Part shown: in pieces, positions 4,616 through 22,137 of the stretch
How positions within the stretch are numbered: the stretch's first letter is position 1
Layout: every line of letters starts with the position of its first letter
The notes under the pieces: generated by a model
Databases searched by the model: none
Seen by the model: the letters and a program-made list of their open reading frames with translations, nothing else
What the model was told of the DNA's origin: nothing
Program-made: the position numbers and the translations under genes
Assembly (NCBI GenBank): GCA_945862035.1
Contig: CAMAXB010000002.1
Span: 1 to 35,058 of the forward strand
Direction: 5' to 3'
DNA from: Opitutus sp. GAS368
GTDB lineage: Bacteria; Verrucomicrobiota; Verrucomicrobiia; Opitutales; Opitutaceae
DNA: 35,058 nt

Positions 4616-5287
4616 ATGCTGTTCCGTCTGGTCCGTACCAGCCTTCTGTTGGCCTTATTCGCCGGCGCCGGGTTTGCCGCCGAGACCGCCCCGGCGCCGA
4701 CGGTTTTTGCGTTGGCCGAACTCGATGAGGCCCCGGTCGTTTCCGCCCAGGTTTCTCCGACGTACCCACCCAATCTCAAGGCTTTGCGCGTGCCCGATGC
4801 GGTGACGCTCATCTTCGTGGTCGACGCGACGGGCGCGGTGCGCGACGTGCAGGTGGTCGAGCCCGGCCAGCCCGACTGCGATGCGGCGGCGGTGGCGGCG
4901 GTCTCGCGCTGGGTGTACCAACCGGGCCGCAAGGCCGGCCAGCCTGTCGCGGTGCGAATGCAGCAGAGGGTCGCGTTTGGCTTCGATGACTCGGCGCTTT
5001 TTGATGTCGACCAGCTCGATCGTGCCCCGATGGTGCGTTACCAGGCCAAGCCCGAGTACCCGCCCGATCTCCGTCGGCGCGGCATCGGCGGCGAGGTGAT
5101 CGTCGAGCTCATCGTCGACGAGCGCGGCATCGCCCGCCGCGTGAAGGCCGTCAGCGCCCCCCATACCGCCCTCGGGGAAGCGGCGGAGAATGCGATCGGC
5201 CAGTGGACCTTTTTTCCCGGTATGAAAGCCGGCCGCGCCGTCGCCACCCGCCTCGCCGTCCCCGTCATGTTCGGCGCTAGACCGTAG
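4616..5287 (+). CDS. Secreted protein with two TonB C-terminal-like domains
   Basis: Signal peptide; two YPPxLxxxxxxGxVxxxxxVDxxGxxxxVxVxx...A...W.F.PgxkaGxPV repeats. Confidence 0.82.
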   Translation: MLFRLVRTSLLLALFAGAGFAAETAPAPTVFALAELDEAPVVSAQVSPTYPPNLKALRVPDAVTLIFVVDATGAVRDVQVVEPGQPDCDAAAVAAVSRWVYQPGRKAGQPVAVRMQQRVAFGFDDSALFDVDQLDRAPMVRYQAKPEYPPDLRRRGIGGEVIVELIVDERGIARRVKAVSAPHTALGEAAENAIGQWTFFPGMKAGRAVATRLAVPVMFGARP

Positions 5288-6020: not shown

Positions 6021-6188
6021 TTTTACCACGGATGGACACGGATTCACACGGATACGAACCGAACAATCGGTAAAGGGCCTGGACTCCACGGCAGTCTGCT
6101 CGTGCTGCTGAAACCGTGTGAATCCGTGGTTAAAAAACTCCGTTCATCAATCATCAGTCGGGTCTTTTCGTGTCCATTCGTGGTTAAT
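6021..6188. repeat. Inverted-repeat element of ACCACGGATGGACACGGATTCACACGG type
   Basis: CGGATTCACACGG-type arm at 6021-6052 against CCGTGTGAATCCGTGGTTAAAA at 6114-6135 and GTGTCCATTCGTGGTTAA at 6171-6188. Confidence 0.55.
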
Positions 6189-6248
6189 CCGTTTGGGGCC
6201 CGCGGCCGGTTGACCTTCGGCGGCTTCATTGCACGCTGGTGCATCCCC

Positions 6249-7340
6249 ATGACGTCGCCGCTCCTGCGTCTCGCGCTGTGTCTGTTTTCCCTGGCGTGCC
6301 TGTCGATTCCCGATGCCCGTGCGGCGGTGGCCTCCAAAGATCGACCAGCCCAGCTTTTCCGTCAGCGGCCCCCGATCCATCCGGATTCGATCGCCAACTT
6401 CCGCGTGCGGGGTGAGGTCAGGGTCACGTTCGACGTCGGTGCGGATGGGACGGTTTCAAATGTCCGCGCGGGCTATGCCACGCACCCTGACTTTATCGCG
6501 CCGGCCATTGCCGCGGTGCTGGAGTGGCGCTACCGGCCGGCCTTGCGGGACGGCCAGCCCGTTCCGATGTATGACCAGAAGGCGAACGTGATTTCCGATG
6601 TCGTGGTGCTGGGTGGGCCCGCGTTCTCGATTCCGCCGCGCGGCTCCGACTTGCTGCCCCCGGCGTTCCGCTATGATGAGCCGCCGTCGATCAGGATAAT
6701 GATGCCGGTGGTGTACCCCTACGAGATTCTGGCCGGCGGCCTGCCCGGGCGGGCGAGCGTGGCGTTTGCGGTCGGACCGGATGGGCGCGTCGAGGACGTT
6801 TCGGTGGTGCGCGCCACGCATCCCGATTTTGGCGAGGCGCTGGCGGCCGCGATGGAGTCATGGGAGTTCGAACCGGCGCGCTACGCCGGCCAGCCCTTCG
6901 CGGCGCTGCTGGCCCGGTCCCTCGATTTTAATCCGGAGGGAAAGGACATGCCCGTCAACGAGACCACGCGCCGACTCCTTTTTGAGAGCCGCAAGCCGAA
7001 TCCTGTATTTGTCGACGTGGCGGACCTGGATGAAATGCCGGCCACGCGCTTCGGCGCAACGCCCCGCTACCCGGGCCGCATGGGTGGCGAGGCGGGCCGA
7101 GCCGAGATCGAGTTCATCATCGACCGCACGGGCCGCGTGCACCTCCCACGCATCGTCTCCGCGTCGGCGCCACCCTTCGGCTGGGCCGCGGTGACGGCGG
7201 CGGCCCAGTGGGAATTCTCCCCTCCGCGCAAGGGAGGCCAGCCGGTCGATGCGCGGATGCGCGTGCCCGTCGATTTTCCGGCCCAGCCGCGCTCCACCCT
7301 CACCGTGATTCCCGCCGCTCCGATCGCGCCGGCGCCCTGA
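6249..7340 (+). CDS. Secreted protein with three TonB C-terminal-like domains
   Basis: Signal peptide after Met at 6249; three repeats with YP...G.A.V.F.V...G.V..........FG.A...A...W.F.PA. Confidence 0.8.
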   Translation: MTSPLLRLALCLFSLACLSIPDARAAVASKDRPAQLFRQRPPIHPDSIANFRVRGEVRVTFDVGADGTVSNVRAGYATHPDFIAPAIAAVLEWRYRPALRDGQPVPMYDQKANVISDVVVLGGPAFSIPPRGSDLLPPAFRYDEPPSIRIMMPVVYPYEILAGGLPGRASVAFAVGPDGRVEDVSVVRATHPDFGEALAAAMESWEFEPARYAGQPFAALLARSLDFNPEGKDMPVNETTRRLLFESRKPNPVFVDVADLDEMPATRFGATPRYPGRMGGEAGRAEIEFIIDRTGRVHLPRIVSASAPPFGWAAVTAAAQWEFSPPRKGGQPVDARMRVPVDFPAQPRSTLTVIPAAPIAPAP

Positions 7341-7449: not shown

Positions 7450-8580
7450 GTGATGCCGCTCGTGTTGCGTTGCGTGCCCCTGCTCTTGGTTGCCGCGCTG
7501 GCGGCCCCGGCCCTGTCGGCGCAGTCCAAGGCCGCCGCCGCTCCTGCCAACCGCGAGGCTGTCCCGTTTCAGCAGAGCCGCCCCGCCTATCCCGAGTCGC
7601 TCCGTACCTATCGAATCCGTGGTGAGGTCCGGCTCGCCTACGACATCGACGCGGAGGGGTATGTGCAGAATCTGCGCGCCACGTATGCGACGCACCCCGA
7701 TTTCCTGCAGCCCGCCCTCGACGTGGCGAAGGGCTGGCGCTTCCGCCCCGCCCGCAAGGACGGAAAGCCGGTGTCCTCAAGTCGCGAGGAGTCGGTCTTC
7801 ACCGACGTTCTCACCCCGGGCTTGGAGGCCTTCGAAATTCCTGCCGTGGCGGTCAAGGACCTGCCGGAATCCCTGCGTTATGACCGGCCGCCGTCGATTC
7901 GCACGCTGGTGCCGGTGGTCTATCCTTATGAGCAATTGCTCGCGAACAAGCGCGGCGCGGCGCAGGTGGCGTTGATCATCGCCCCGGACGGATTGACGCG
8001 TGAGCTCCGGGTGCGCGCCGCCTCGGAACCTGCCTTCGGCCTGGCGCTGGCGGCGGCGATGGAGGCCTGGGAGTTCGAACCGGCGGTCAAGAACGGCGCG
8101 CCCAGCGGTGCGATCCTGACCCGGGGCCAGGAGTTCAAGGTGGATGGTGAAGACCGGCTGGTCAGCGACGGCACCCGCCGGCTGCTGCGGATCCTTTCCT
8201 CCGAAAATCCCGCCATTGTTGATCTCTCCGCGCTCGACGCCTCACCCGAGCCACTGGAGCGCGTTCCGCCGGTGTTTCCGCAGAAGCATGCCGGCAAGGA
8301 TGGCACCACGGAAGTTGAATTCATCATCGATCGCGAGGGCGTGGTCCACCTGCCTCGTATTGTGTCGGCCAGCGAGCCGGAGTTTGGCTGGTCCGCCGCC
8401 ACGGCCGTGGTCCGCTGGAGATTCGCGCCGCCCATCAAGGCGGGGGAGCCGGTGGACGCGCGGGTGCGCGTGCAACTTGATTTTCGTGCCGCCGAACCGG
8501 CGCCGGCGGCCGAAACCCCGCCGACCCCGACCGACCCTTCCTCCCCGGCGCCGGCGGCCGGGTCCCCACCCCCGGCCTGA
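7450..8580 (+). CDS. Secreted protein with three TonB C-terminal-like domains, paralogue of 6249..7340
   Basis: SLRYDRPPSIRTLVPVVYPYEQLLA matches AFRYDEPPSIRIMMPVVYPYEILA of the neighbour; same three-repeat layout. Confidence 0.82.
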   Translation: MMPLVLRCVPLLLVAALAAPALSAQSKAAAAPANREAVPFQQSRPAYPESLRTYRIRGEVRLAYDIDAEGYVQNLRATYATHPDFLQPALDVAKGWRFRPARKDGKPVSSSREESVFTDVLTPGLEAFEIPAVAVKDLPESLRYDRPPSIRTLVPVVYPYEQLLANKRGAAQVALIIAPDGLTRELRVRAASEPAFGLALAAAMEAWEFEPAVKNGAPSGAILTRGQEFKVDGEDRLVSDGTRRLLRILSSENPAIVDLSALDASPEPLERVPPVFPQKHAGKDGTTEVEFIIDREGVVHLPRIVSASEPEFGWSAATAVVRWRFAPPIKAGEPVDARVRVQLDFRAAEPAPAAETPPTPTDPSSPAPAAGSPPPA

Positions 8581-10436: not shown

Positions 10437-10473
10437 GTTGCCTTTAAGGCAACCGTTGTTGCTCACCGACAAC
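10437..10473 (+). promoter_or_regulatory. Candidate EBP upstream activating sequence, double dyad
   Basis: GTTGCC-TTTAA-GGCAAC-CGTT-GTTGCT-CACC-GACAAC; first dyad extends to the perfect palindrome GGTTGCCTTTAAGGCAACC. Confidence 0.75.
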
Positions 10474-10504: not shown

Positions 10505-10520
10505 TGGCATGCTCAATGCT
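10505..10520 (+). promoter_or_regulatory. Candidate sigma-54 promoter of the TonB-dependent receptor gene
   Basis: TGGCATG-CTCA-ATGCT, 10/12 to TGGCACG-N4-TTGCW; about 45 nt predicted leader to ATG 10576. Confidence 0.75.
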
Positions 10521-10575: not shown

Positions 10576-13500
10576 ATGCATCGCCAAGATCAGGATTCAG
10601 TTTGTCGCCGCTGGGCACGAAAAATCTGCCTAGCGACGGTCGCAATGGGATCCCTCGGCACGGGCCTTTGGGCCCAGGTCGCTCCCCAACCCGCCAGCCC
10701 CGCCGCCCGTCCGAGTACGGGCACCGAAGACGTCATCGAGATGGAGGCCTTCTCCGTCACGGGTTCTAACGTTAAGCGCATGGACCAGGAAAATGTCCTG
10801 CCGGTCACGGTGATGAGCCGCGATGCGATGGACGTGCGCAATGCGCTGACGCCGGTCGATATGCTCACGGCCCTGCCGCAGGTCACGGGTGTGCCGGCGA
10901 ACGAATCACGCTCGGCCTCGGCCGGTGCGCGTGGTGACAACGCCAACATCAACATGCGCGGCCTCGGCACGAATGCCTCGCTCGTCCTGCTGAACGGCCG
11001 GCGCCTTGCCCCGCATCCGATGACGGGCGACCTCGTCGTGAATGTGAATCAGCTGCCCAACCAGGGTATCAGCCAGATTGAGGTGCTGCGCGACGGCGCC
11101 TCCTCGCTCTACGGCTCCGACGCCATTGCCGGGGTCGTGAACTACATCATGCGGACTGATTATCGCGGGGTGCAGATCAAGACCCGTTACGCGACGCCGG
11201 AAGAGCCGGGCGGCTCCCAGCTCCAGGGAACGATCACCTATGGGGCCGACTTCCTCGACGGCCGCCTGCGCTACCTCACGAACTTCGATGTCTTTTTCCG
11301 CGAGGAGCTGTGGCTCCACCAGCGCGAGCAGGGGCGCTTTGCCGACAACTCCTACCGGGCCCCCGCGCCCTTCAACGGGGCGGCAGGTCCCTTCAACTCC
11401 GCGGCAGTTGTTGGTCGCTGGCCCACCTTCCGGGTCGGCACGGCCACGGCCACCAATTATTTCCGTCCGGTCAGCGGCACGCCAACCCTAACCACGGTGG
11501 CGCCGACCCGCGCGGCCAATCCGGAGTACTACAACAACCTGAACGCCTACTCGATGGCGTCCCCCCGCACGCGGCGCATCAACTGGTTCAATCGCGTCGA
11601 GTATGACTTCACCGACACGATCACCGCGTTTGCCGACATCTCACTCTATAAGGCGGACTCCGTCACGATCCGCCAGCCGATCAGCATGAACGCGCCGACC
11701 AGTGACGCGTTTGCGGTCATGTCGGAAAACAATCCCTTCAACCCGTATGGCTCGCGCTTCTTCCACGTCACCGGCGCACCGAATACGGATGGCACCGCCC
11801 GCCTGGTGGGTGCGCCGCGCTCGATTTCCATGCAGGCCCAGCAGATTCAGGATCTCCCGGGTGACCGCATGGAAGTCTCTGCCGGAACCTATCGCTTCGT
11901 GGGCGGCCTCATGGGCAAGCTCACCGACACGTGGTCATGGGAGACGGGTGCCCTTTACACGCAGGTTTACGCGGCCGACCGCGCGCCCTTCAATGTGCGC
12001 GAGAGTCTCTACCACGCGGCGTTGGGTCGCACCGCCATCCCCGGACCAAACGACAACCGCTTCGCGGCTGAGGCCGGCGCGTTCAATCCGTTTGGCTACA
12101 CCTTCAAGGTTCAGAACGGCGCGGTGGTGGCCGACCAGCCCTATGTCAACCCCCAGGGCGTGATGAACACCTTCGTCGATCGCTGGCGCCAGGATGGCCG
12201 CACCGAAGTGGCGAGCCTCGATGCCCGCGCCTCCGGTCGTCTCTTCACGATGTGGGCCGGCGACATCAATGTCGCGATCGGCGGCGAGTACCGAACCGAG
12301 TACTTCCGCTGGGTCCGTCCTTACAATGTGAGCACGCGCAATGACTTCTATGTGTCTTCGCCAATTCCGGACAACACGGGCGACCGTACCGTCACCAGCT
12401 TCTACTCCGAACTGGTGATTCCACTGGTCGCGCCCCAGAACAACATCCCGCTGGCCAATTCCCTCGAGCTGTCCGCCTCGGCCCGTTATGAGAGCTACGA
12501 TGACTTTGGGAACACCACCCGGCCCAAGGTCGGCCTGAACTGGAAGCCGCTGCCCAACATCATGGTCCGCAGTTCCTACAACGAGGGCTTCACTGCTCCC
12601 AGCCTCGCGGATCTCTACTCGCCGCCGTCCTCCACCATCGGCTCGGTCGCGACGCAGATCGACACCTACCGCAATGTCGCGACGAGCGAAGGCGCGTACG
12701 TGACGCTCGCCATCACCTCCGGCAATCCGAACCTGCAGCCGGCCGAGTCCGAGGGCAAGAGCGCGGGCATCGTGATTGATGTGCCATGGGTCCCCGGCCT
12801 CACGCTCACCGCCGACTATTGGGAGATTGATCAGATCGGTCAGGTCGGCTCGCGCAGTGTCTCCCAGCTCTACATCAGCGATGATGTGCTGCTGAAGGCC
12901 TATGTCGCGCAGCAGATCGCCGCGGGCGTCCCGGTCATGTCCATCGACACCGCTAGTGGCACCGCGAACTACCGCGGCGACGTCGGCATCCAGCGCTTTG
13001 CGGCAAATGCCGAGGACGTCGCGCTCTTCGCCGCGTGGAATGCCGCCAATCCCGGCAACCCCCGCGCGGTCGTCGGTCGCGTTCGCGCCACCAACTCGCC
13101 CATCGGCAATCTGGTCTCTGCCACCGCCTCCGGCTGGGATTTCGGCGCAAGCTATAATCTGCCCGAATTGAGCATCGGCCGCCTGTCCTTCACCACGGAC
13201 TGGAGCTACCTGGTCGACTCCTTCTCGACCAACTCGGCGGGGCTCAAACCGGTCATCTCCCTGCGCAAGGGCGTAGGCAGCAACGCCGAGTGGCGGGGCA
13301 ATGGCACCGCGAGCTGGCGCAAGGACAACTGGACGGTGGGCCTGAGCGCCTACTACATCGGCGACTACACCATCGCCAATGTCACCACGACCCAGGCGCT
13401 CTACGAGTCACTCGGTCGGCCCGATTACATCCGCCCGCAGTTCACCGATGGCAACACGCTCTACCGCTACGTCGTGGAGGAAACGCTGTCGTTCAACGGC

Positions 13501-13689
13501 TTTGTTACCTACCGCTTCGGCCGCGGCGCGGATCGCTTCTGGCTGCCGACCTCCGTCCGCCTCGGCGTGTCCAATCTTACCGATGAGGAGCCGCCGCTCT
13601 CCAACGGCAACTTCGGCTATGATCCCGGCGTGCATGCGAATCTCTTCGCCGGCCGCACCTGGAGCATCGAGCTGAACAAGGAGTTCTAA
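10576..13689 (+). CDS. TonB-dependent outer-membrane receptor
   Basis: Signal peptide; plug domain (NINMRGLGTNASLVLLNGRRLAP, EVLRDGASSLYGSDAIAGVVNYIM); C-terminal beta-signal (TWSIELNKEF). Confidence 0.95.
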   Translation: MHRQDQDSVCRRWARKICLATVAMGSLGTGLWAQVAPQPASPAARPSTGTEDVIEMEAFSVTGSNVKRMDQENVLPVTVMSRDAMDVRNALTPVDMLTALPQVTGVPANESRSASAGARGDNANINMRGLGTNASLVLLNGRRLAPHPMTGDLVVNVNQLPNQGISQIEVLRDGASSLYGSDAIAGVVNYIMRTDYRGVQIKTRYATPEEPGGSQLQGTITYGADFLDGRLRYLTNFDVFFREELWLHQREQGRFADNSYRAPAPFNGAAGPFNSAAVVGRWPTFRVGTATATNYFRPVSGTPTLTTVAPTRAANPEYYNNLNAYSMASPRTRRINWFNRVEYDFTDTITAFADISLYKADSVTIRQPISMNAPTSDAFAVMSENNPFNPYGSRFFHVTGAPNTDGTARLVGAPRSISMQAQQIQDLPGDRMEVSAGTYRFVGGLMGKLTDTWSWETGALYTQVYAADRAPFNVRESLYHAALGRTAIPGPNDNRFAAEAGAFNPFGYTFKVQNGAVVADQPYVNPQGVMNTFVDRWRQDGRTEVASLDARASGRLFTMWAGDINVAIGGEYRTEYFRWVRPYNVSTRNDFYVSSPIPDNTGDRTVTSFYSELVIPLVAPQNNIPLANSLELSASARYESYDDFGNTTRPKVGLNWKPLPNIMVRSSYNEGFTAPSLADLYSPPSSTIGSVATQIDTYRNVATSEGAYVTLAITSGNPNLQPAESEGKSAGIVIDVPWVPGLTLTADYWEIDQIGQVGSRSVSQLYISDDVLLKAYVAQQIAAGVPVMSIDTASGTANYRGDVGIQRFAANAEDVALFAAWNAANPGNPRAVVGRVRATNSPIGNLVSATASGWDFGASYNLPELSIGRLSFTTDWSYLVDSFSTNSAGLKPVISLRKGVGSNAEWRGNGTASWRKDNWTVGLSAYYIGDYTIANVTTTQALYESLGRPDYIRPQFTDGNTLYRYVVEETLSFNGFVTYRFGRGADRFWLPTSVRLGVSNLTDEEPPLSNGNFGYDPGVHANLFAGRTWSIELNKEF

Positions 13690-13969: not shown

Positions 13970-14881
13970 TCACGGTTTCTTCGCGTCCGCCAGCAGTGCG
14001 TCGATCAGCGGAATCTGTTCGGCCGGATCATCCCCCGGGCGCAGATCCGTGTGCCGGACGCTGCCGTCCGGACCGAGGATCACGCGGAATGGCAGGCGCT
14101 GGATGGCCAGCGCCGCCATGAAGGACTCGTCGCGGGCGACGGCCACCGTGCCGGCGATGCCGCGGGCCTGGGCAAATTCGCCGAGCAGGGTGAGTTCGCG
14201 CGCGGGATCGCCGCGTGTGTCGATGGGTTCGGGCCCGATCCCGCTGAGGCTGCCCTGCAAGGTGGTGATCGCGACAAACGCGACCGGCTGGCCGGCGTAG
14301 TGCGCGGCCAGCTCGCGCACCCGGGGAAACGCGCGCACGCTGGATACAGACCACGTCGCCCAGAAGTCGATCACGACCACCTGGCCACGCAGCGCCTCGA
14401 GGGAGGCGAGCCCGGCGGGTTGCGACCATTGCAGCGGGAGCGCGGGCAGGGGTCGGCCAACAAGGGACGACTGGGCCGCGCGCGCCTGCAGACGCGCTTC
14501 GCGGCGCATCAGGGCGCTGGCGACGGCGAGCCCGGTGTCGGCGTCGGGAAATTCCTCCTGCAGCTGCCGGATGTAGGCCTGCGGCCGCTCCGGTTGATCG
14601 AACAGTTCGATGTCGAGCGCGAGCCGCGTCACGAGGATGTCGGCGACGTCATGCGTCTTCTCCGCCCGATGCTGCTCAAACAGCGCCCCGAGCTCGGTGA
14701 GTTCAGGGGTCAGGGCCGCCTCGGTGTCGTCCCCGGCGGCAACCTTGGCCTGGATTCGAGCGACAATCTCCTCGTGGGCCAGCGCGACGGCCGACGGCGG
14801 CCCGATGGCGTGAGCGCCGGCCGAGGAGGCCAGCAGGCCGAAGAGAAGAGCAATGAGGCCGGGAGCGAAACGCTGCATCAT
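13970..14881 (-). CDS. TlpA-like thioredoxin-fold protein without CxxC
   Basis: LRGQVVVIDFWATWSVSSVRAFPRVRELAAHY matches TlpA/AhpC-TSA context with SVSS in place of CxxC; signal peptide. Confidence 0.8.
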   Translation of the reverse strand: MMQRFAPGLIALLFGLLASSAGAHAIGPPSAVALAHEEIVARIQAKVAAGDDTEAALTPELTELGALFEQHRAEKTHDVADILVTRLALDIELFDQPERPQAYIRQLQEEFPDADTGLAVASALMRREARLQARAAQSSLVGRPLPALPLQWSQPAGLASLEALRGQVVVIDFWATWSVSSVRAFPRVRELAAHYAGQPVAFVAITTLQGSLSGIGPEPIDTRGDPARELTLLGEFAQARGIAGTVAVARDESFMAALAIQRLPFRVILGPDGSVRHTDLRPGDDPAEQIPLIDALLADAKKP

Positions 14882-14967: not shown

Positions 14968-15978
14968 TCAGACGGCGGGCGACGGGTTGCTCCAGGCCGG
15001 GGCCGCGAGCTCGGTCACGAGCCGGATGCCGGCCGGGGCGGTGATCAGACGGGGCACGATATTGATCAGCGCAGCCACCGTGGCGTCGTCACCGGCGACG
15101 CCGCCGTTGAGCGTGAGATGAAGGTTGGGCCGTCCGCGGATGACAATCGTGTCGTGGGGATTGGGCTCCCCGAGCGCCATGGTCAGGTCGAGCACGATCT
15201 TGGCCTCGTCGCCGACCATGCCGATGGCACGCTGGTGGAGACCGCGCGTCTGCCCAGGGGCGACATCGAAGAAGGTGGTCTTGATCCGAGCGTCGGCCAC
15301 GACGGGCTCGCACATCTCGGTGATGGCATCGAGTTTCCACCCCATCGCCTTGGCGAGGAGCGCGAGGGACTGCTGGAAGCCGGCGTGGCCGGCCTTGCCG
15401 GCCTTGAAGGCGGCGCGGAATTCCTCGGGCGGGCGGGCGCTGCCGATCTTAGCCTGGAGCGGACCGCGGCGGGTGGACGCATCCACGACGCGTTCGACGT
15501 AGATCGAGTTCACCTGGCGACTGACGCCGGTGAGGACGATCGGGAGCAGGTCCATGACGAATCCAGGATTGACGCCGGTGGCGACCACGCGGGCGCCGGA
15601 CTTGCGGCAGAGCGCATCGTACTCGGCGGCGATTTCCGGTGTCTTGAGTTGAGGGAAGATCAGCTCCTCGCAGGTCGAGGCGACGCTGATGCCGCGCTCA
15701 AGCGCCGGACGGACCTGCGCAAGGGAGGCGGCCGCGCTGGAGGAGGCGGTGTGGAGGATCACGTCGGGCGTCACGGCCTTGAGTAGCTCGTCCATCGAGG
15801 CGTGGACTTTGCCGGCAACGGTGGCATTGCCGGTGACGTCGGCCATGGAGCGGCCGGCTTTGTCGGGGGCGACATCGACGCCACCGACGATTTCGATCCA
15901 TCCTTGGGTGGCGGCGAGGGCGATCGATTCGAGACCGATTGGACCGAGGCCGAATTGGGCGACTTTGATTTTCTTCAT
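14968..15978 (-). CDS. DapB/2,4-diaminopentanoate dehydrogenase-like NAD(P)-dependent oxidoreductase
   Basis: N-terminal Rossmann FGLGPIG; PDVILHTASSSAAA, STCEELIFP, GVNPGFVMDLLPIVLT as in ORD-like proteins. Confidence 0.75.
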   Translation of the reverse strand: MKKIKVAQFGLGPIGLESIALAATQGWIEIVGGVDVAPDKAGRSMADVTGNATVAGKVHASMDELLKAVTPDVILHTASSSAAASLAQVRPALERGISVASTCEELIFPQLKTPEIAAEYDALCRKSGARVVATGVNPGFVMDLLPIVLTGVSRQVNSIYVERVVDASTRRGPLQAKIGSARPPEEFRAAFKAGKAGHAGFQQSLALLAKAMGWKLDAITEMCEPVVADARIKTTFFDVAPGQTRGLHQRAIGMVGDEAKIVLDLTMALGEPNPHDTIVIRGRPNLHLTLNGGVAGDDATVAALINIVPRLITAPAGIRLVTELAAPAWSNPSPAV

Positions 15979-16001: not shown

Positions 16002-16017
16002 TGCACTTATGATGCCA
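16002..16017 (-). promoter_or_regulatory. Candidate sigma-54 promoter of the dehydrogenase gene
   Basis: Minus strand TGGCATC-ATAA-GTGCA, GG and GC correctly spaced, 9/12 to consensus. Confidence 0.6.
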
Positions 16018-16061: not shown

Positions 16062-16108
16062 GTTGCCGTACGGCAACCAGCGGTTAGCCCGCGTTGCTGT
16101 AGCGCAAC
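16062..16108 (-). promoter_or_regulatory. Candidate EBP binding dyads upstream of the dehydrogenase gene
   Basis: GTTGCC-GTAC-GGCAAC (16062-16077) inside the perfect palindrome GGTTGCCGTACGGCAACC; second dyad GTTGCT-GTAG-CGCAAC (16093-16108) within the EBP 3' end. Confidence 0.55.
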
Positions 16109-17472
16109 GGGTCGAGCTGGTGACGCCGCACCAGCCGGAAGTAGTGCGAGCGGTCGATGCCCGCGAGGCGGGCGGCGGCTGCCATATTGCCGCGGGCGAG
16201 GCGCAGGCCCTGCTCGAGGTAACGCCGCTCGAAGGCCGCTTTGGCCTCGGCATAGGTGCCGGTGAGGTTGGCGGGCGCGGGCGGGACGTCGCCGGCCCGA
16301 CTAGTCTCGCGCAGGATGCGCTCCGGAAGATCGGCGACGTCGATCCATTCGCGGTCGTGGAGGACGGCGAAGCGCTCAACCAGATGCTCGAGCTCACGGA
16401 CGTTGCCGGGCCAGCCGTAGACCTTGAGGCGGTGGACCGCGTCGGACGTGAAGCCGACGAGGGGGGACCGCGTATTGCGGTAGCGGCGGAGGAAGTGGTC
16501 GATCAGCAGACTGATGTCCACCGGCCGTTTGCGCAGCGGCGGCAGGGTCAGCGAGATCACGTGCAGGCGGTAGAAGAGATCGGTGCGGAAACGTCCCGCC
16601 TCGATTTCCTTTTGCAGGTCGCGGTTGGTCGCGGCGATCACGCGGGCGTGCGATTGCAGGGTCTCGGTGCCACCCACGCGGTTGAACTTGCCGCTCTGCA
16701 GCACGCGCAGGAGCTTGGACTGCAGGGGGTAGCTCATCTCGCCGATCTCATCGAGGAAGAGCGTGCCGGCGCCCGCCTCCTCAAAGCGGCCGACCCGCTG
16801 GTCCGTGGCGCCGGTGAATGCGCCGCGATCGTGCCCAAAGAGTTCGCTCTCGAGTAGGTTCTCCGGGATCGCCGCGCAGTTAATTTCGACGAAGGGCTGG
16901 TTGTGCCGCGGGCTGCGCAGGTGCAGGGCCTGTGCCACCAGCTGCTTGCCGGTACCCGTCTCGCCCAAAATCAGCACGCGGCTGTCGCTGCGGGCCACGG
17001 CCTCAATCGTATCAAAGACCGCCTTCATCGCCGGATCCTCGGAAATCATGCCCTCGCGCCGCACCTCCGCCTGGCCATCCGGCTCCTGCTCGCGGCTGAT
17101 CAACTTGGCCAGGCGGGCCAGCAGTTCCTCCGGCACAACCGGTTTCTCCAGATAGTCGGAAACGCCCAGCCGGGTCGCCTCAATCGCCGTCTTTTCATTG
17201 CCGTGGCTGGTGATCATCACGATCGGGATTCGGCTGCCCTGACCCCGCAGGCGGCGGATCAGCTCGAATCCTCCCATCTCCCTAATCACCAGCGTCGTGA
17301 TCACCAAGTCATACGCCTGCTTCTTCACCATGCGGAGCGCCCGCAGCGGGCTGCCGCAAATCACGGCGGCGCGGCAATGGGGCTTCAGCAGAGCTCGCAC
17401 CTCCTGACAAAACACGGGGATATCGTCGACGATCAGAATGCGGGCCGAGGCGAGGGCGGCATAGGGATTCAC
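16084..17472 (-). CDS. Sigma-54-dependent NtrC-family regulator (receiver + AAA+ + Fis-type HTH), receiver lacking phospho-Asp
   Basis: Walker A GETGTGKQ, GAFTGA sigma-54 contact loop, VGRFEEAGAGTLFLDEIGEM, C-terminal NMAAAARLAGIDRSHYFRLVRRHQ; GTG start at 17472. Confidence 0.95.
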   Translation of the reverse strand: MNPYAALASARILIVDDIPVFCQEVRALLKPHCRAAVICGSPLRALRMVKKQAYDLVITTLVIREMGGFELIRRLRGQGSRIPIVMITSHGNEKTAIEATRLGVSDYLEKPVVPEELLARLAKLISREQEPDGQAEVRREGMISEDPAMKAVFDTIEAVARSDSRVLILGETGTGKQLVAQALHLRSPRHNQPFVEINCAAIPENLLESELFGHDRGAFTGATDQRVGRFEEAGAGTLFLDEIGEMSYPLQSKLLRVLQSGKFNRVGGTETLQSHARVIAATNRDLQKEIEAGRFRTDLFYRLHVISLTLPPLRKRPVDISLLIDHFLRRYRNTRSPLVGFTSDAVHRLKVYGWPGNVRELEHLVERFAVLHDREWIDVADLPERILRETSRAGDVPPAPANLTGTYAEAKAAFERRYLEQGLRLARGNMAAAARLAGIDRSHYFRLVRRHQLDPLRYSNAG

Positions 17473-17509
17473 GTTGTTGATAAGACAACACTAGTTGTTT
17501 CAGGGCAAC
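17473..17509 (+). promoter_or_regulatory. Candidate EBP upstream activating sequence, double dyad
   Basis: GTTGTT-GATAA-GACAAC-ACTA-GTTGTT-TCAG-GGCAAC; same layout as 10437-10473; abuts the EBP start codon. Confidence 0.75.
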
Positions 17510-17540
17510 TTTAAAAAGCGCTCTTCCCGTTGTTTGTCAC

Positions 17541-17556
17541 TGGCATGATGACTGCT
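17541..17556 (+). promoter_or_regulatory. Candidate sigma-54 promoter of the gltS operon
   Basis: TGGCATG-ATGA-CTGCT, 10/12 to consensus; 68 bp from UAS start, as upstream of the TonB receptor. Confidence 0.75.
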
Positions 17557-17613
17557 GCTTCAGATTGATCCGCCGGTTTTTTTGAGAATTGTAATTAGTC
17601 TACCCCGCTCCAC

Positions 17614-18882
17614 GTGACACTTTCCGCCTGGTACCTGTTGTTGTTGGCCGTGCCCGTGCTCCTCGCCGGCGAAGCCGTCTGTCGGCGCGTGCCGGTTCTG
17701 GCGCGCTTCAACATCCCGGCGCCGGTCGTCGGAGGGCTGGGCACCAGCCTGCTCGTGCTCGCGCTGTCGTTTGCCGGGGTCACGATCTCGTTCTCGTCGC
17801 GCACGGACGCGGCGTGGTGGACCTGGCTGGTCACGCCGGAGATCGAGTGGCTCACGCGGCCGCAGAAGGCGGTGAACCTGCCGCTGCTGATCGCCTTCTT
17901 CACCTGCGTTGGACTGAACTCGACGTGGCGCATCGTCAGGTCCGGCAGCTGGCAGCTCCTGCTCTTCTGGGGCCTTGCGACGGTGCTGGCGGTCGGCCAG
18001 AGCTTCACCGGTGTCGCGTTGGCGAACGTTCTCGGCGTTGATTCGTTACTCGGCCTGATCTGCGGCAGCGTGTCCATGACCGGGGGCCATGGCACCGCGC
18101 TGGGCTTCGCCGACACGATCAAGCAGGCTGGCTACGCCGAGGCCGCCACGGCGGGCGCGGCGGCGGCGACCTTTGGCTTGGTGGCCGGTGGGCTGCTCGG
18201 CGGGCCGATCGGCACGCGGCTGATCCAGCGCTTCCAGCTTCCCGTCCCGGGTGCGGCGCGGGCGTCGTCAGCCGGCTCGTCTTCCGCTGGTGGCATCCTC
18301 ACCGATATCGGCCGCCTGGCCGGCACGGGTCGCAGTGCGGTGGTGCATCTGCTGATTCTCGCCGGCTGCATCAAGGTCGGCGCGTGGGTCTCCTACTTCC
18401 TGCAATCCCTCGGGATCGTGTTTCCCGCCTACATGGGGGCTTTGCTCGTGGGCGTCGCCCTGCGGAATTTTCTCGATGCCACCGGCCGCCCGTGGATCCG
18501 CAGCGAGGTGGTGGACCTGATCGGCGCGGTCGCACTGGGTCTCTTCCTGGCGATGGCCATGGCCAGCCTCAATCTGCGCGAACTCGCCGGTGCCGCTGGC
18601 CCAATGCTTATCATCCTCGTGGCTCAGGTCACGCTCACCGCGCTGTTCGCCTGGTGGGTCACCTTCAGACTGCTCGGCCGCGACTACGATGCGGCCGTCA
18701 TGGCGGGTGGTCACTGCGGCTTCGCGCTCGGTGCCACACCCAATGCCGTGGCCAACATGGACGCCCTTGCGCGGCGCTACGGCCCCGCGCCCCGCGCCTA
18801 CACCGTTGTTCCGCCCGTGGGAGCCTTCCTCATCGATTTCACCAACGCCCTCACGATCACGGCTTTCCTTAACTTTCTCTGA
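17614..18882 (+). CDS. gltS: Sodium:glutamate symporter, GltS family
   Basis: GSVSMTGGHGTALGFA, AAATFGLVAGGLLGGPIGTRLI, DYDAAVMAGGHCGFALGATPNAVANMDAL resemble E. coli GltS. Confidence 0.9.
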   Translation: MTLSAWYLLLLAVPVLLAGEAVCRRVPVLARFNIPAPVVGGLGTSLLVLALSFAGVTISFSSRTDAAWWTWLVTPEIEWLTRPQKAVNLPLLIAFFTCVGLNSTWRIVRSGSWQLLLFWGLATVLAVGQSFTGVALANVLGVDSLLGLICGSVSMTGGHGTALGFADTIKQAGYAEAATAGAAAATFGLVAGGLLGGPIGTRLIQRFQLPVPGAARASSAGSSSAGGILTDIGRLAGTGRSAVVHLLILAGCIKVGAWVSYFLQSLGIVFPAYMGALLVGVALRNFLDATGRPWIRSEVVDLIGAVALGLFLAMAMASLNLRELAGAAGPMLIILVAQVTLTALFAWWVTFRLLGRDYDAAVMAGGHCGFALGATPNAVANMDALARRYGPAPRAYTVVPPVGAFLIDFTNALTITAFLNFL

Positions 18883-18933: not shown

Positions 18934-20523
18934 ATGACAACCTCGTTCATCCCGCGCCTCCTCCGCTTTGCGCTCGTGGCGCTCGCCGGTCCCGTAGCCC
19001 TGCTCGCTCAGTACGACATCCTCATCCGGGGTGGCCGCGTCCTTGATGGCTCCGCCAGCCCCTGGCGCCATGCGGACATTGCGATCACCGGTGATCGCAT
19101 CATGGAGGTCGGCTTCATTCCGACCACCGCCACCGCCAAGCGCGTGATCAACGCTGCCGGCAAGTACGTGACCCCCGGTTTCATCGATGCGCACTCCCAC
19201 GTCGCTCCGGAGATCGGAACCGAAAAGGGCGCGCCCGCCATCCCCATGCTCCTGCAGGGTGTCACCACCGCGATGATCAATCCCGACGGCGGCGGGCCGG
19301 CCGATCTCAAGCCGCAGCTGGACGCCATCCGCACGCAGCGCCCGGGGCTCAACATCGTGCCGATGATCGGTCACAACGGGGTCCGCAGCACGGTCATGGG
19401 CATGGAAAACCGGGCGCCCACCCCGGAGGAACTCCAGCAGATGAAGGACTACGTCCGAGGCGCCATGCAGCTGGGCGCCTTCGGCTTCTCCAGCGGCCCG
19501 TTCTACACCCCCGGAAAATTTTCCACGACCGATGAGCTCGTCGCCCTCGCCCGTGTTGCCAATGAGACGCCGGGCGCATTCCACATCAGTCACGTTCGCG
19601 ACGAGGCCTCCTACGATGTCGGCGTGGTTGAGGCCGTGAACGAGTTGATCGAGGTCTCCCGCCAGACAGGCATCATCGGTGTCGCCACCCACATCAAGTG
19701 CATCGGTCCGACGGTGTGGGGCAAGTCCGCCGACATCATCGCGAACATCAACAAGGCCCGGGCCGAGGGGCTCTCAATCTGGTCCGACCAGTACGCCTAC
19801 GCCGCCTCCAGCACCGGTCTCCAGGCCGCGCTAGTCCCTGGCTGGGCCCAGGAGGGCGGCCCGACCGCACTCCGCACCCGCCTCGCCAACCCCGAGCAGC
19901 GCGCGACGATCCGGCTCGAGATGGTCGACAACCTCGCCCGCCGCGCCGGCGCCAATGCCGTCATGATCGCGAGCCACGCCGCCGACCGGAAGCTGGAGGG
20001 CAAGCGCCTCGACGAGATCGCGCGCGAGCGTTTGCAGGACCCGGTCGACACCGCCATCGACATCCTCATGGCGGGCGGCGCCTCGATCGTCTCGTTCAAC
20101 ATGAACGAGACCGATCTCGAGGCCTTCATGAAGCAGCCGTGGAACATGACCTGCAGCGACGGCGGCCTGCCCGAGTTTGGCGTCGGCGCCGGTCACCCGC
20201 GCAGCTACGGCGCCTTCTCGCGCAAGATCCGCCGCTACGTCGTCGAGCGGGGCGCCATTTCCCTGGAGCATGCCATCCATACCTCCACCGGCCTCACCGC
20301 CGGCGTGTTCGGCATCAAGGACCGCGGCGTCCTCGTCCGTGGCGCCTATGCCGACATCCTCGTCTTCGATCTCGCCACGGTCACCGATCTCGCGACCTAC
20401 GAGCAGCCCCACGCCTATTCGACCGGCATGGACTTCATTCTCATCAACGGTCAGGTCGCCGTGGCCGACGGCAAGGTGACGCCCGAGCGCCACGGCCGCG
20501 TCCTCCTCCGCCACCAACAATAA
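18934..20523 (+). CDS. Periplasmic N-acyl-D-amino-acid deacylase (D-aminoacylase) family amidohydrolase
   Basis: Signal peptide; DILIRGGRVLDGSASPWRHADIAITGDRI, VTPGFIDAHSH metal motif, FGFSSGPFYTPGKFSTTDEL, FHISHVRDE. Confidence 0.9.
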   Translation: MTTSFIPRLLRFALVALAGPVALLAQYDILIRGGRVLDGSASPWRHADIAITGDRIMEVGFIPTTATAKRVINAAGKYVTPGFIDAHSHVAPEIGTEKGAPAIPMLLQGVTTAMINPDGGGPADLKPQLDAIRTQRPGLNIVPMIGHNGVRSTVMGMENRAPTPEELQQMKDYVRGAMQLGAFGFSSGPFYTPGKFSTTDELVALARVANETPGAFHISHVRDEASYDVGVVEAVNELIEVSRQTGIIGVATHIKCIGPTVWGKSADIIANINKARAEGLSIWSDQYAYAASSTGLQAALVPGWAQEGGPTALRTRLANPEQRATIRLEMVDNLARRAGANAVMIASHAADRKLEGKRLDEIARERLQDPVDTAIDILMAGGASIVSFNMNETDLEAFMKQPWNMTCSDGGLPEFGVGAGHPRSYGAFSRKIRRYVVERGAISLEHAIHTSTGLTAGVFGIKDRGVLVRGAYADILVFDLATVTDLATYEQPHAYSTGMDFILINGQVAVADGKVTPERHGRVLLRHQQ

Positions 20524-20547: not shown

Positions 20548-22137
20548 ATGAAGACCCGTTCTCTCCGCCTCTCCGGGTTCGCGCTGCTAGCCTGCGCCGC
20601 CGCCTCAACCCTCGCCGCCCAGTCCTACGATGTCCTCATCCGCGGTGGCCGTGTGATCGACGGCACCGGCAGCCCCTGGCGCTACGCCGATGTCGCCATT
20701 AAGGGCGACCGCATCGTCGAGGTCGGCCCGATTCCCGCCGAAGCCACCGCCACCCGCGTGATCGATGCGCGCAACCGCTAGGTCACCCCGGGCTTCATCG
20801 ACCCGCACTCGCATGCGATGCCTGGGCTCACCACGGCCGAACTCGCGGGCGCTCCGCCCATCCTCTACCAGGGCATTACCACCGTGCTGATCAATCCGGA
20901 CGGCGGCGGGCCGGCCGATCTCGAGGACCAGCTCCGGCCCACGCGCCAGCATGGGCCGGGCGTCAACGTCGCGCCCATGATCGGCCACAATGGCGTGCGC
21001 TCGACCGTCATGGGCCTCGAGGACCGCCTGCCGACTCCGGACGAGCTCGAGCAGATGAAGACCTACGTGCGAAAGGCGATGGAGCTCGGCGCCTTTGGCT
21101 TCTCCAGCGGTCCGTTCTACATCCCGGGCAAGTACTCCAAGACCGACGAGATTGTCACGCTCGCGAAGGTCGCGGCCGAATTCCCCGAGACGTTTCACAT
21201 CAGCCACATTCGCGACGAGTCCAGCTACGACATTGGCGTGGTCGCCGCGGTCAACGAGCTGATTGAGATCTCCCGGCAGGCCAAGATCCCGGGCATTGTC
21301 ACCCATATCAAGGGCATCGGACCCACCGTCTGGGGCAAGTCGGCCGAGGTCATCGCCAATATCAACAAGGCCCGCGCCGAGGGCCTCGAGATCTGGGCGG
21401 ACCAGTATCCGTACTCCGCCTCCGGCTCGAGCCTCCAGGCCTCGCTCGTCCCGGGCTGGGCGCAGGAGGGCGGCCAGCAGGCCATCGCCACTCGCCTCTC
21501 CAATCCCGAGCAGCGCGCGACGATCCGGATCGAGATGTTGGAGAATCTCGCCCGCCGCGCCGGCGCGAACGCCATCATGATCCGCCGCCACGCAGCCAAT
21601 CCGAAGCTGGAGGGCCGCCGTCTCGATGAGATCGCCCGCGAGCGGCTGCAGGAGCCGATCGACACCGCGATTGACATGCTCATCGCCGGCGGCGCCGCGA
21701 TCGTCTCCTTCAACATGAACGAGAGCGACGTCGAGGCCTACATGCGCCAGCCGTGGAACATGACCTGCACCGACGGCGGGCTCGTCACGTTTGGCTCCGG
21801 GGCCGAGCACCCGCGCGCCTACGGCGCCTTCCCGCGCAAGATCCGCCGCTACGCCCTCGACCGCGGCGCGATCACGCTGGAACACGCGATCCACACCTCC
21901 ACCGGCCTCACCGCCGGCGTGCTCAACATCCAGGACCGTGGCGTGCTGCGCCCGGGCGCCTATGCCGATGTCGTCGTGTTCAATCCGGAAACCATCAACG
22001 ACCCCGCCGCCTACGACGCGCCGCATGCGTACTCGACCGGCATGGACTACGTGCTGGTCAACGGGAAGTTCGCCCTCGCCGAGGGCAAGGTGCTCCCGGA
22101 ACGGCACGGCCGCGTGCTGCTCCGGCATCAGCAGTAG
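20548..22137 (+). pseudogene. Second D-aminoacylase-family amidohydrolase, interrupted by in-frame TAG
   Basis: 77-aa ORF ends at TAG 20779-20781 (IDARNR*VTPGFIDPHSH); same frame continues to 22137, closely similar to 18934..20523. Confidence 0.88.

Follow-up and report, generated by a model that had tools for sequence, protein, structure and literature searches.

The region between the gene of an NtrC-family sigma-54 activator (EBP) and the divergent gltS gene raises the question of whether the paired inverted repeats (dyads) and the -24/-12 element found there constitute a regulatory switch and, if so, which genes it serves. The window examined is the whole stretch of 35,058 nucleotides from Opitutus sp. 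GAS368. As judged from sequence comparison, the answer is very probably affirmative: the locus would carry a real, conserved switch, in which the enhancer of the EBP and the sigma-54 promoters form one local uptake-and-catabolism regulon.

Direct reading of the window confirms, letter by letter, the UAS/sigma-54 module that the first-pass annotation had placed at 17473-17556. This module (Module B) reads GTTGTT (17473-17478)-GATAA-GACAAC (17484-17489)-ACTA-GTTGTT (17494-17499)-TCAG-GGCAAC (17504-17509), followed after 31 bp by TGGCATGATGACTGCT. The latter contains TGGCA-N7-TGC, with GG and GC 12 bp apart, and thus matches the sigma-54 consensus TGGCA..TGC (PMC8743547); the start of gltS transcription is predicted at 17567. 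The two dyads upstream of TGGCATGATGACTGCT represent tandem putative activator sites and are kept in orthologs. Since the GTG start of the EBP open reading frame, on the minus strand, lies at 17472, the UAS adjoins its start codon exactly. The identical geometry reported for the TonB-dependent receptor module (Module A) also holds: 5/4/4 bp inside the UAS, 21 bp from dyad start to dyad start and 68 bp from UAS start to promoter. Module A reads GTTGCC-TTTAA-GGCAAC-CGTT-GTTGCT-CACC-GACAAC (10437-10473), 31 bp, TGGCATGCTCAATGCT (10505-10520), and the match in spacing is obtained with its second dyad read as GTTGCT-N4-GACAAC at 10458-10473. Absent from the earlier annotation is a third module on the minus strand, Module C (16108-16002), which precedes the ord-like gene and overlaps the EBP gene at its 3' end. 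The dyad centres are separated by 20.5, 20.5 and 31 bp in Modules A, B and C, corresponding to about 2, 2 and 3 helical turns.

The dyads are rare. The two-dyad pattern matches at Modules A and B and in 0/100 dinucleotide shuffles, and of the six matches to GTTGYYN4-5RRCAAC across the 2.85-Mb assembly, five fall within Modules A-C. A dyad followed within 22-52 bp by TGGC-N8-TGC occurs assembly-wide only at Modules A, B and C. The promoter motif is far less selective when taken with one mismatch: TGGCA-N7-TGCT is common in GC-rich DNA, with 10 matches observed in the window against 6 expected. A scan of 250 family genomes for a single dyad plus promoter returned mostly chance matches in coding sequence, and the controls gave many matches as well; such single-site matches, being mostly due to chance, were therefore not taken as evidence.

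Regarding the genes of the locus (Table 1), the EBP scores 237.6 bits against PF00158 and 23.4 bits against PF02954 and has GAFTGA in its translation, as expected for an AAA+/HTH activator. Against TIGR01818 (NtrC/NR(I) proper) it reaches 381.3 bits, below the cut-off of 558.6, so that it does not qualify as NtrC proper. The closest solved relatives of the two D-aminoacylase-like amidohydrolases, the first of which is probably co-transcribed with gltS, are N-acyl-D-glutamate deacylase and D-aminoacylase. The ord-like protein is amino-acid-dehydrogenase-like, and its relatives in the PDB are dihydrodipicolinate-reductase-like. Orthologous EBP loci also carry genes for gamma-glutamyltransferase, M14 carboxypeptidase and TonB systems. 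Judging from this gene content, the common theme of the locus would be the import and degradation of amino-acid compounds of the glutamate-like, N-acyl or gamma-glutamyl kind. Upstream of the receptor module, three tandem TonB genes are present (4616-5287, 6102-7340 and 7450-8580), and a class A beta-lactamase-like gene (PF13354; 9302-10255, minus strand), whose product stays under the curated NCBIfam cut-offs shown, adjoins it. In some relatives, the neighbours of the EBP gene encode an exosortase (L161:8109-9152) or a VPDSG-CTERM protein (L151:449-1165).

Table 1. Genes and predicted regulatory elements of the locus, by position in the window
Feature	Positions	Strand	Remarks
Module A, distal dyad	10437-10453		GTTGCC-N5-GGCAAC
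Module A, proximal dyad	10458-10473		GTTGCT-N4-GACAAC
Predicted sigma-54 promoter of TonB-dependent receptor	10505-10520	+	TGGCATGCTCAATGCT
TonB-dependent receptor	10576-13689	+	PF00593, PF07715
Redoxin/thioredoxin-like protein	13970-14881	-	Downstream of ord; weak PF08534 match
ord-like dehydrogenase (2,4-diaminopentanoate dehydrogenase / dihydrodipicolinate-reductase-like)	14968-15978	-	PF19328; NF040740 below cut-off
Predicted sigma-54 promoter of ord-like gene	16002-16017	-	TGGCATCATAAGTGCA
Module C, proximal dyad	16062-16077		GTTGCC-N4-GGCAAC; 31 bp centre to centre from distal dyad
NtrC-family EBP (sigma-54 activator)	16084-17472	-	Receiver-like domain without phospho-Asp, AAA+ with GAFTGA, Fis-type HTH; GTG start
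Module C, distal dyad	16093-16108		Minus-strand GTTGCG-N4-AGCAAC; inside 3' end of EBP gene
Module B, dyad next to EBP start	17473-17489		17 bp, GTTGTT-N5-GACAAC
Module B, second dyad	17494-17509		16 bp, GTTGTT-N4-GGCAAC; 20.5 bp centre to centre from first dyad
Predicted sigma-54 -24/-12 promoter of gltS	17541-17556	+	TGGCATGATGACTGCT
gltS, sodium/glutamate symporter	17614-18882	+	TIGR00210 317.1 bits (cut-off 310.75); PF03616
D-aminoacylase / N-acyl-D-glutamate deacylase-like amidohydrolase	18934-20523	+	
Second amidohydrolase, D-aminoacylase-like tandem paralog	20626-22137	+	72% identical to first

Orthologs of the EBP are found in 15 genomes of the same family, with 62-77% identity, after which the next best matches drop to about 340 bits. 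In the genome_contigs collection, the best of the matches listed reaches about 41% identity and no ortholog is among them; at the loci of these distant homologs that were scanned, no two-dyad UAS was found. A motif-free palindrome test was too weak, since the window itself scored no better than p = 0.10, and was replaced by a scan of whole loci (6-20 kb) with a half-site matrix built from the six window dyads only, allowing a gap of 3-6 bp within the dyad pair. With this matrix, the best dyad pair of the locus is the one immediately upstream of the EBP start in 12/15 orthologs, with a centre spacing of 20.5-21.5 bp. In L162, a GTGGAC/GTCCAC variant is recognisable by eye at the same place. In the window and in L153-L157 and L158, no base separates the dyad from the EBP start codon; in several others the distance is 1-6 nt. 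Dyad length (16-17 bp) varies and the half-sites drift across genera, which counts against the preferred reading. TGGCA-N7-TGC promoters face gltS or the aminoacylase gene in L153-L158 and ord in L153-L163. On the other hand, L159-L161, L164 and L165 retain the UAS without a strict divergent sigma-54 promoter; activation of the divergent gene is therefore not the sole role of the UAS. In one of these loci (L164, genome G147), a DHDPS-family gene and an FAA-hydrolase gene are separated by an extra two-dyad UAS (L164:12044-12081) accompanied by divergent sigma-54 promoters, likely a further regulon member in that genome.

Promoter and activator are associated at ord, before which a TGGCATCACACGTGC-type promoter is conserved in EBP-bearing relatives. 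Of the genomes with ord, 13/13 that bear the EBP have the sigma-54 promoter, located 46-58 bp before ord, vs 0/16 of those that lack the EBP, the absence of the EBP being judged by an E-value threshold and locus L199 being one that could not be placed. The corresponding Fisher p of about 1.5e-8 (1/C(29,13)) ignores relatedness, and genomes of one family are not independent. Both states, with and without the EBP, are present inside genera g7, g8 and g59. rpoN was detected in 15/15 EBP-bearing relatives and in 15/16 of the EBP-free genomes with ord (partial in two), only G264 being without a match; consequently, the absence of the promoter is not explained by loss of sigma-54. Searches of the window's own assembly, which is 86% complete, with PF04552 and TIGR02395 gave no rpoN match, a point against the preferred reading; the assembly probably misses the piece that bears the gene. 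In the EBP-free genome G255 (L189), a decayed-looking sigma-54-like element, TGGCATCCTCCGGGC, occurs 48 bp before the ord start and is possibly a decaying promoter.

In two genomes of genus g8, the EBP gene has been relocated and its start is not preceded by a dyad pair, while a dyad pair (4-bp gap) and two divergent sigma-54 promoters remain between ord and the aminoacylase gene. Here the UAS sites travel with the target genes.

The exact correspondence between Modules A and B admits an explanation other than selection on distance. The first-pass annotation had described the spacers of the two modules as different and had argued from the shared geometry for selection, an argument that loses weight here. 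The UAS-promoter spacers are indeed not identical, but 16/31 positions agree in register (52%; shuffle p = 0.0016), so that they are not simply different. Similarity is weaker downstream (19/47, p = 0.018) and disappears upstream of the UAS (7/60). Moreover, the UAS-promoter gap amounts to 42-44 bp in the orthologous gltS/aminoacylase modules (L153-L158), vs 31 bp in the window. Selection as such is backed by the ortholog comparison, but the features conserved across genera are the two-dyad spacing and the placement at the EBP start, and not the 68 bp. Because the gap is not conserved and half of the spacer is shared, the exact match may stem from duplication of one module instead of independent selection for 68 bp. 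The evidence for this reading is about evenly balanced: the in-register spacers, the residual downstream similarity and the different gap in orthologs favour it, while the region upstream of the UAS shows no similarity and the likeness of the spacers could reflect a common constraint on a short loop.

Concerning the dyads themselves, a chance coincidence of inverted repeats with a -24/-12 match has a negligible probability; one-mismatch promoter matches are indeed common and single-dyad-plus-promoter matches across the family mostly due to chance, but the two-dyad pattern does not arise in shuffled sequence, is nearly unique in the genome and is conserved, and the ortholog dyad pairs together with the co-occurrence of ord promoter and EBP refute a chance origin. 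It is also very improbable that the dyads are bound by another DNA-binding protein or by the second EBP of the genome. Binding by the EBP studied here is only predicted and the genome does have two full-length EBPs; however, dyads and promoters co-occur with this EBP, in the absence of which the ord promoter is missing. The second EBP, the only other full-length one found in the assembly, is an ordinary Asp-bearing one encoded on another contig, and its HTH differs; it was rejected as the binder, given its HTH and the fact that the ord promoter tracks the first EBP. A somewhat more serious, though still rather doubtful, possibility is that the dyads at the EBP start act mainly as an autoregulatory operator that sets the EBP level, activation of gltS being secondary or lineage-specific. 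The position of the pair at or near the start codon in most orthologs and its retention in the five loci without a strict divergent promoter are consistent with such a role. Against it, the EBP start in genus g8 has no dyad pair while the targets ord and aminoacylase have one, and at two other places in the window, distant from that start, a dyad pair precedes a sigma-54 promoter. The core reading of the first-pass annotation, EBP enhancer sites coupled to a gltS sigma-54 promoter, is well supported by the 12/15 ortholog dyad pairs and by the distribution of the ord promoter.

As to the signal, the position of the phospho-acceptor Asp, aligned with the Asp of NtrC1 and LuxO, is occupied by Thr in the window EBP, which accordingly lacks the conserved Asp of a phosphorylation-controlled response regulator. 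Of the 16 family members, 14 have Thr at this position, two have Gly and none has Asp. Classical phosphorylation is therefore unlikely, and the EBP is probably activated by a ligand, a partner or its own protein level, and not by a kinase.

The observed sites, their geometry and conservation, the co-occurrence with the EBP and the loss of the Asp are best explained by the following mechanism. The Fis-type HTH of the EBP would bind GTTGYY-N4/5-RRCAAC as dimers spaced two turns apart on the same face of the helix, and the bound dimers would nucleate the AAA+ oligomer. Looping over about 76 bp, the oligomer could then open sigma-54 RNA polymerase at 17541-17556, so that gltS and the D-aminoacylase genes would be transcribed from near 17567. 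The same EBP would drive the TonB-dependent receptor through Module A and the ord-like dehydrogenase through Module C, with glutamate-like or N-acyl/gamma-glutamyl amino-acid compounds as the presumed substrates of the regulon.

Since the dyad ends at the base before the EBP start codon, binding of the EBP probably also represses its own gene, by analogy with XylR at Pr; the operator adjoins or nearly adjoins this codon in most orthologs. Such autoregulation is not obligatory, because the relocated EBP gene of genus g8 has no such site. L160, L161, L164 and L165 each have a well-conserved sigma-54 promoter that lacks a dyad nearby; their only good dyads are found on the far side of the EBP gene, at a distance of about 1.4 kb. 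A more speculative extension, which at present appears unlikely, is that the two dyads next to the EBP start may be a shared two-way enhancer, also acting on the ord (or gamma-glutamyltransferase) promoter about 1.4 kb off and served by activators in which phosphorylation has been permanently replaced by another input to the receiver-like domain.

Taken as a whole, a complete small regulon is defined here from sequence, comprising activator, binding site, three promoters and the uptake and catabolic genes. The gain and loss of activator and promoter within single genera provide a natural experiment on the formation and decay of a sigma-54 regulon, and since every family member has lost the phospho-Asp, how a kinase-free, receiver-bearing activator is gated becomes a directly testable question. 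A literature search limited to open-licence papers found no paper on sigma-54 activators in Verrucomicrobia/Opitutaceae. Switches of this kind are well known, while the activator family with its lost phosphorylation site, the binding site and the regulon look undescribed.

Four known systems come closest. The sigma-54 activator XylR of the TOL plasmid shows the same arrangement, with its gene and the sigma-54 promoter of its target pointing in opposite directions; at the divergent Ps/Pr region, XylR activates its target and represses its own promoter (PMC3469447). XylR, however, responds to an aromatic effector and recognises another site, whereas the EBP described here has a receiver-like N-terminal domain and its autorepression is only inferred. 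Similarly, the norR-norVW intergenic region, which separates an activator gene from its divergent sigma-54 target, has multiple enhancer sites that scaffold the NorR oligomer (PMC2941729). NorR differs in its GAF domain and in its three sites, in contrast to the two dyads two turns apart found here. With NtrC, the EBP shares the receiver-AAA+-Fis HTH order and palindromic sites of about 17 bp, that of NtrC being TGCACCAnnnTGGTGCA (PMC8743547); it differs in the GTTGYY half-site, in the missing phospho-Asp and in its score of 381 bits vs the NCBIfam ntrC cut-off of 558.6. Finally, FleQ is likewise a sigma-54 activator with a phosphorylation-incompetent receiver domain (PMC10723142). Unlike FleQ, a motility and biofilm regulator that works with FleN and c-di-GMP (PMC10723142), the EBP has predicted targets in uptake and amino-acid catabolism.
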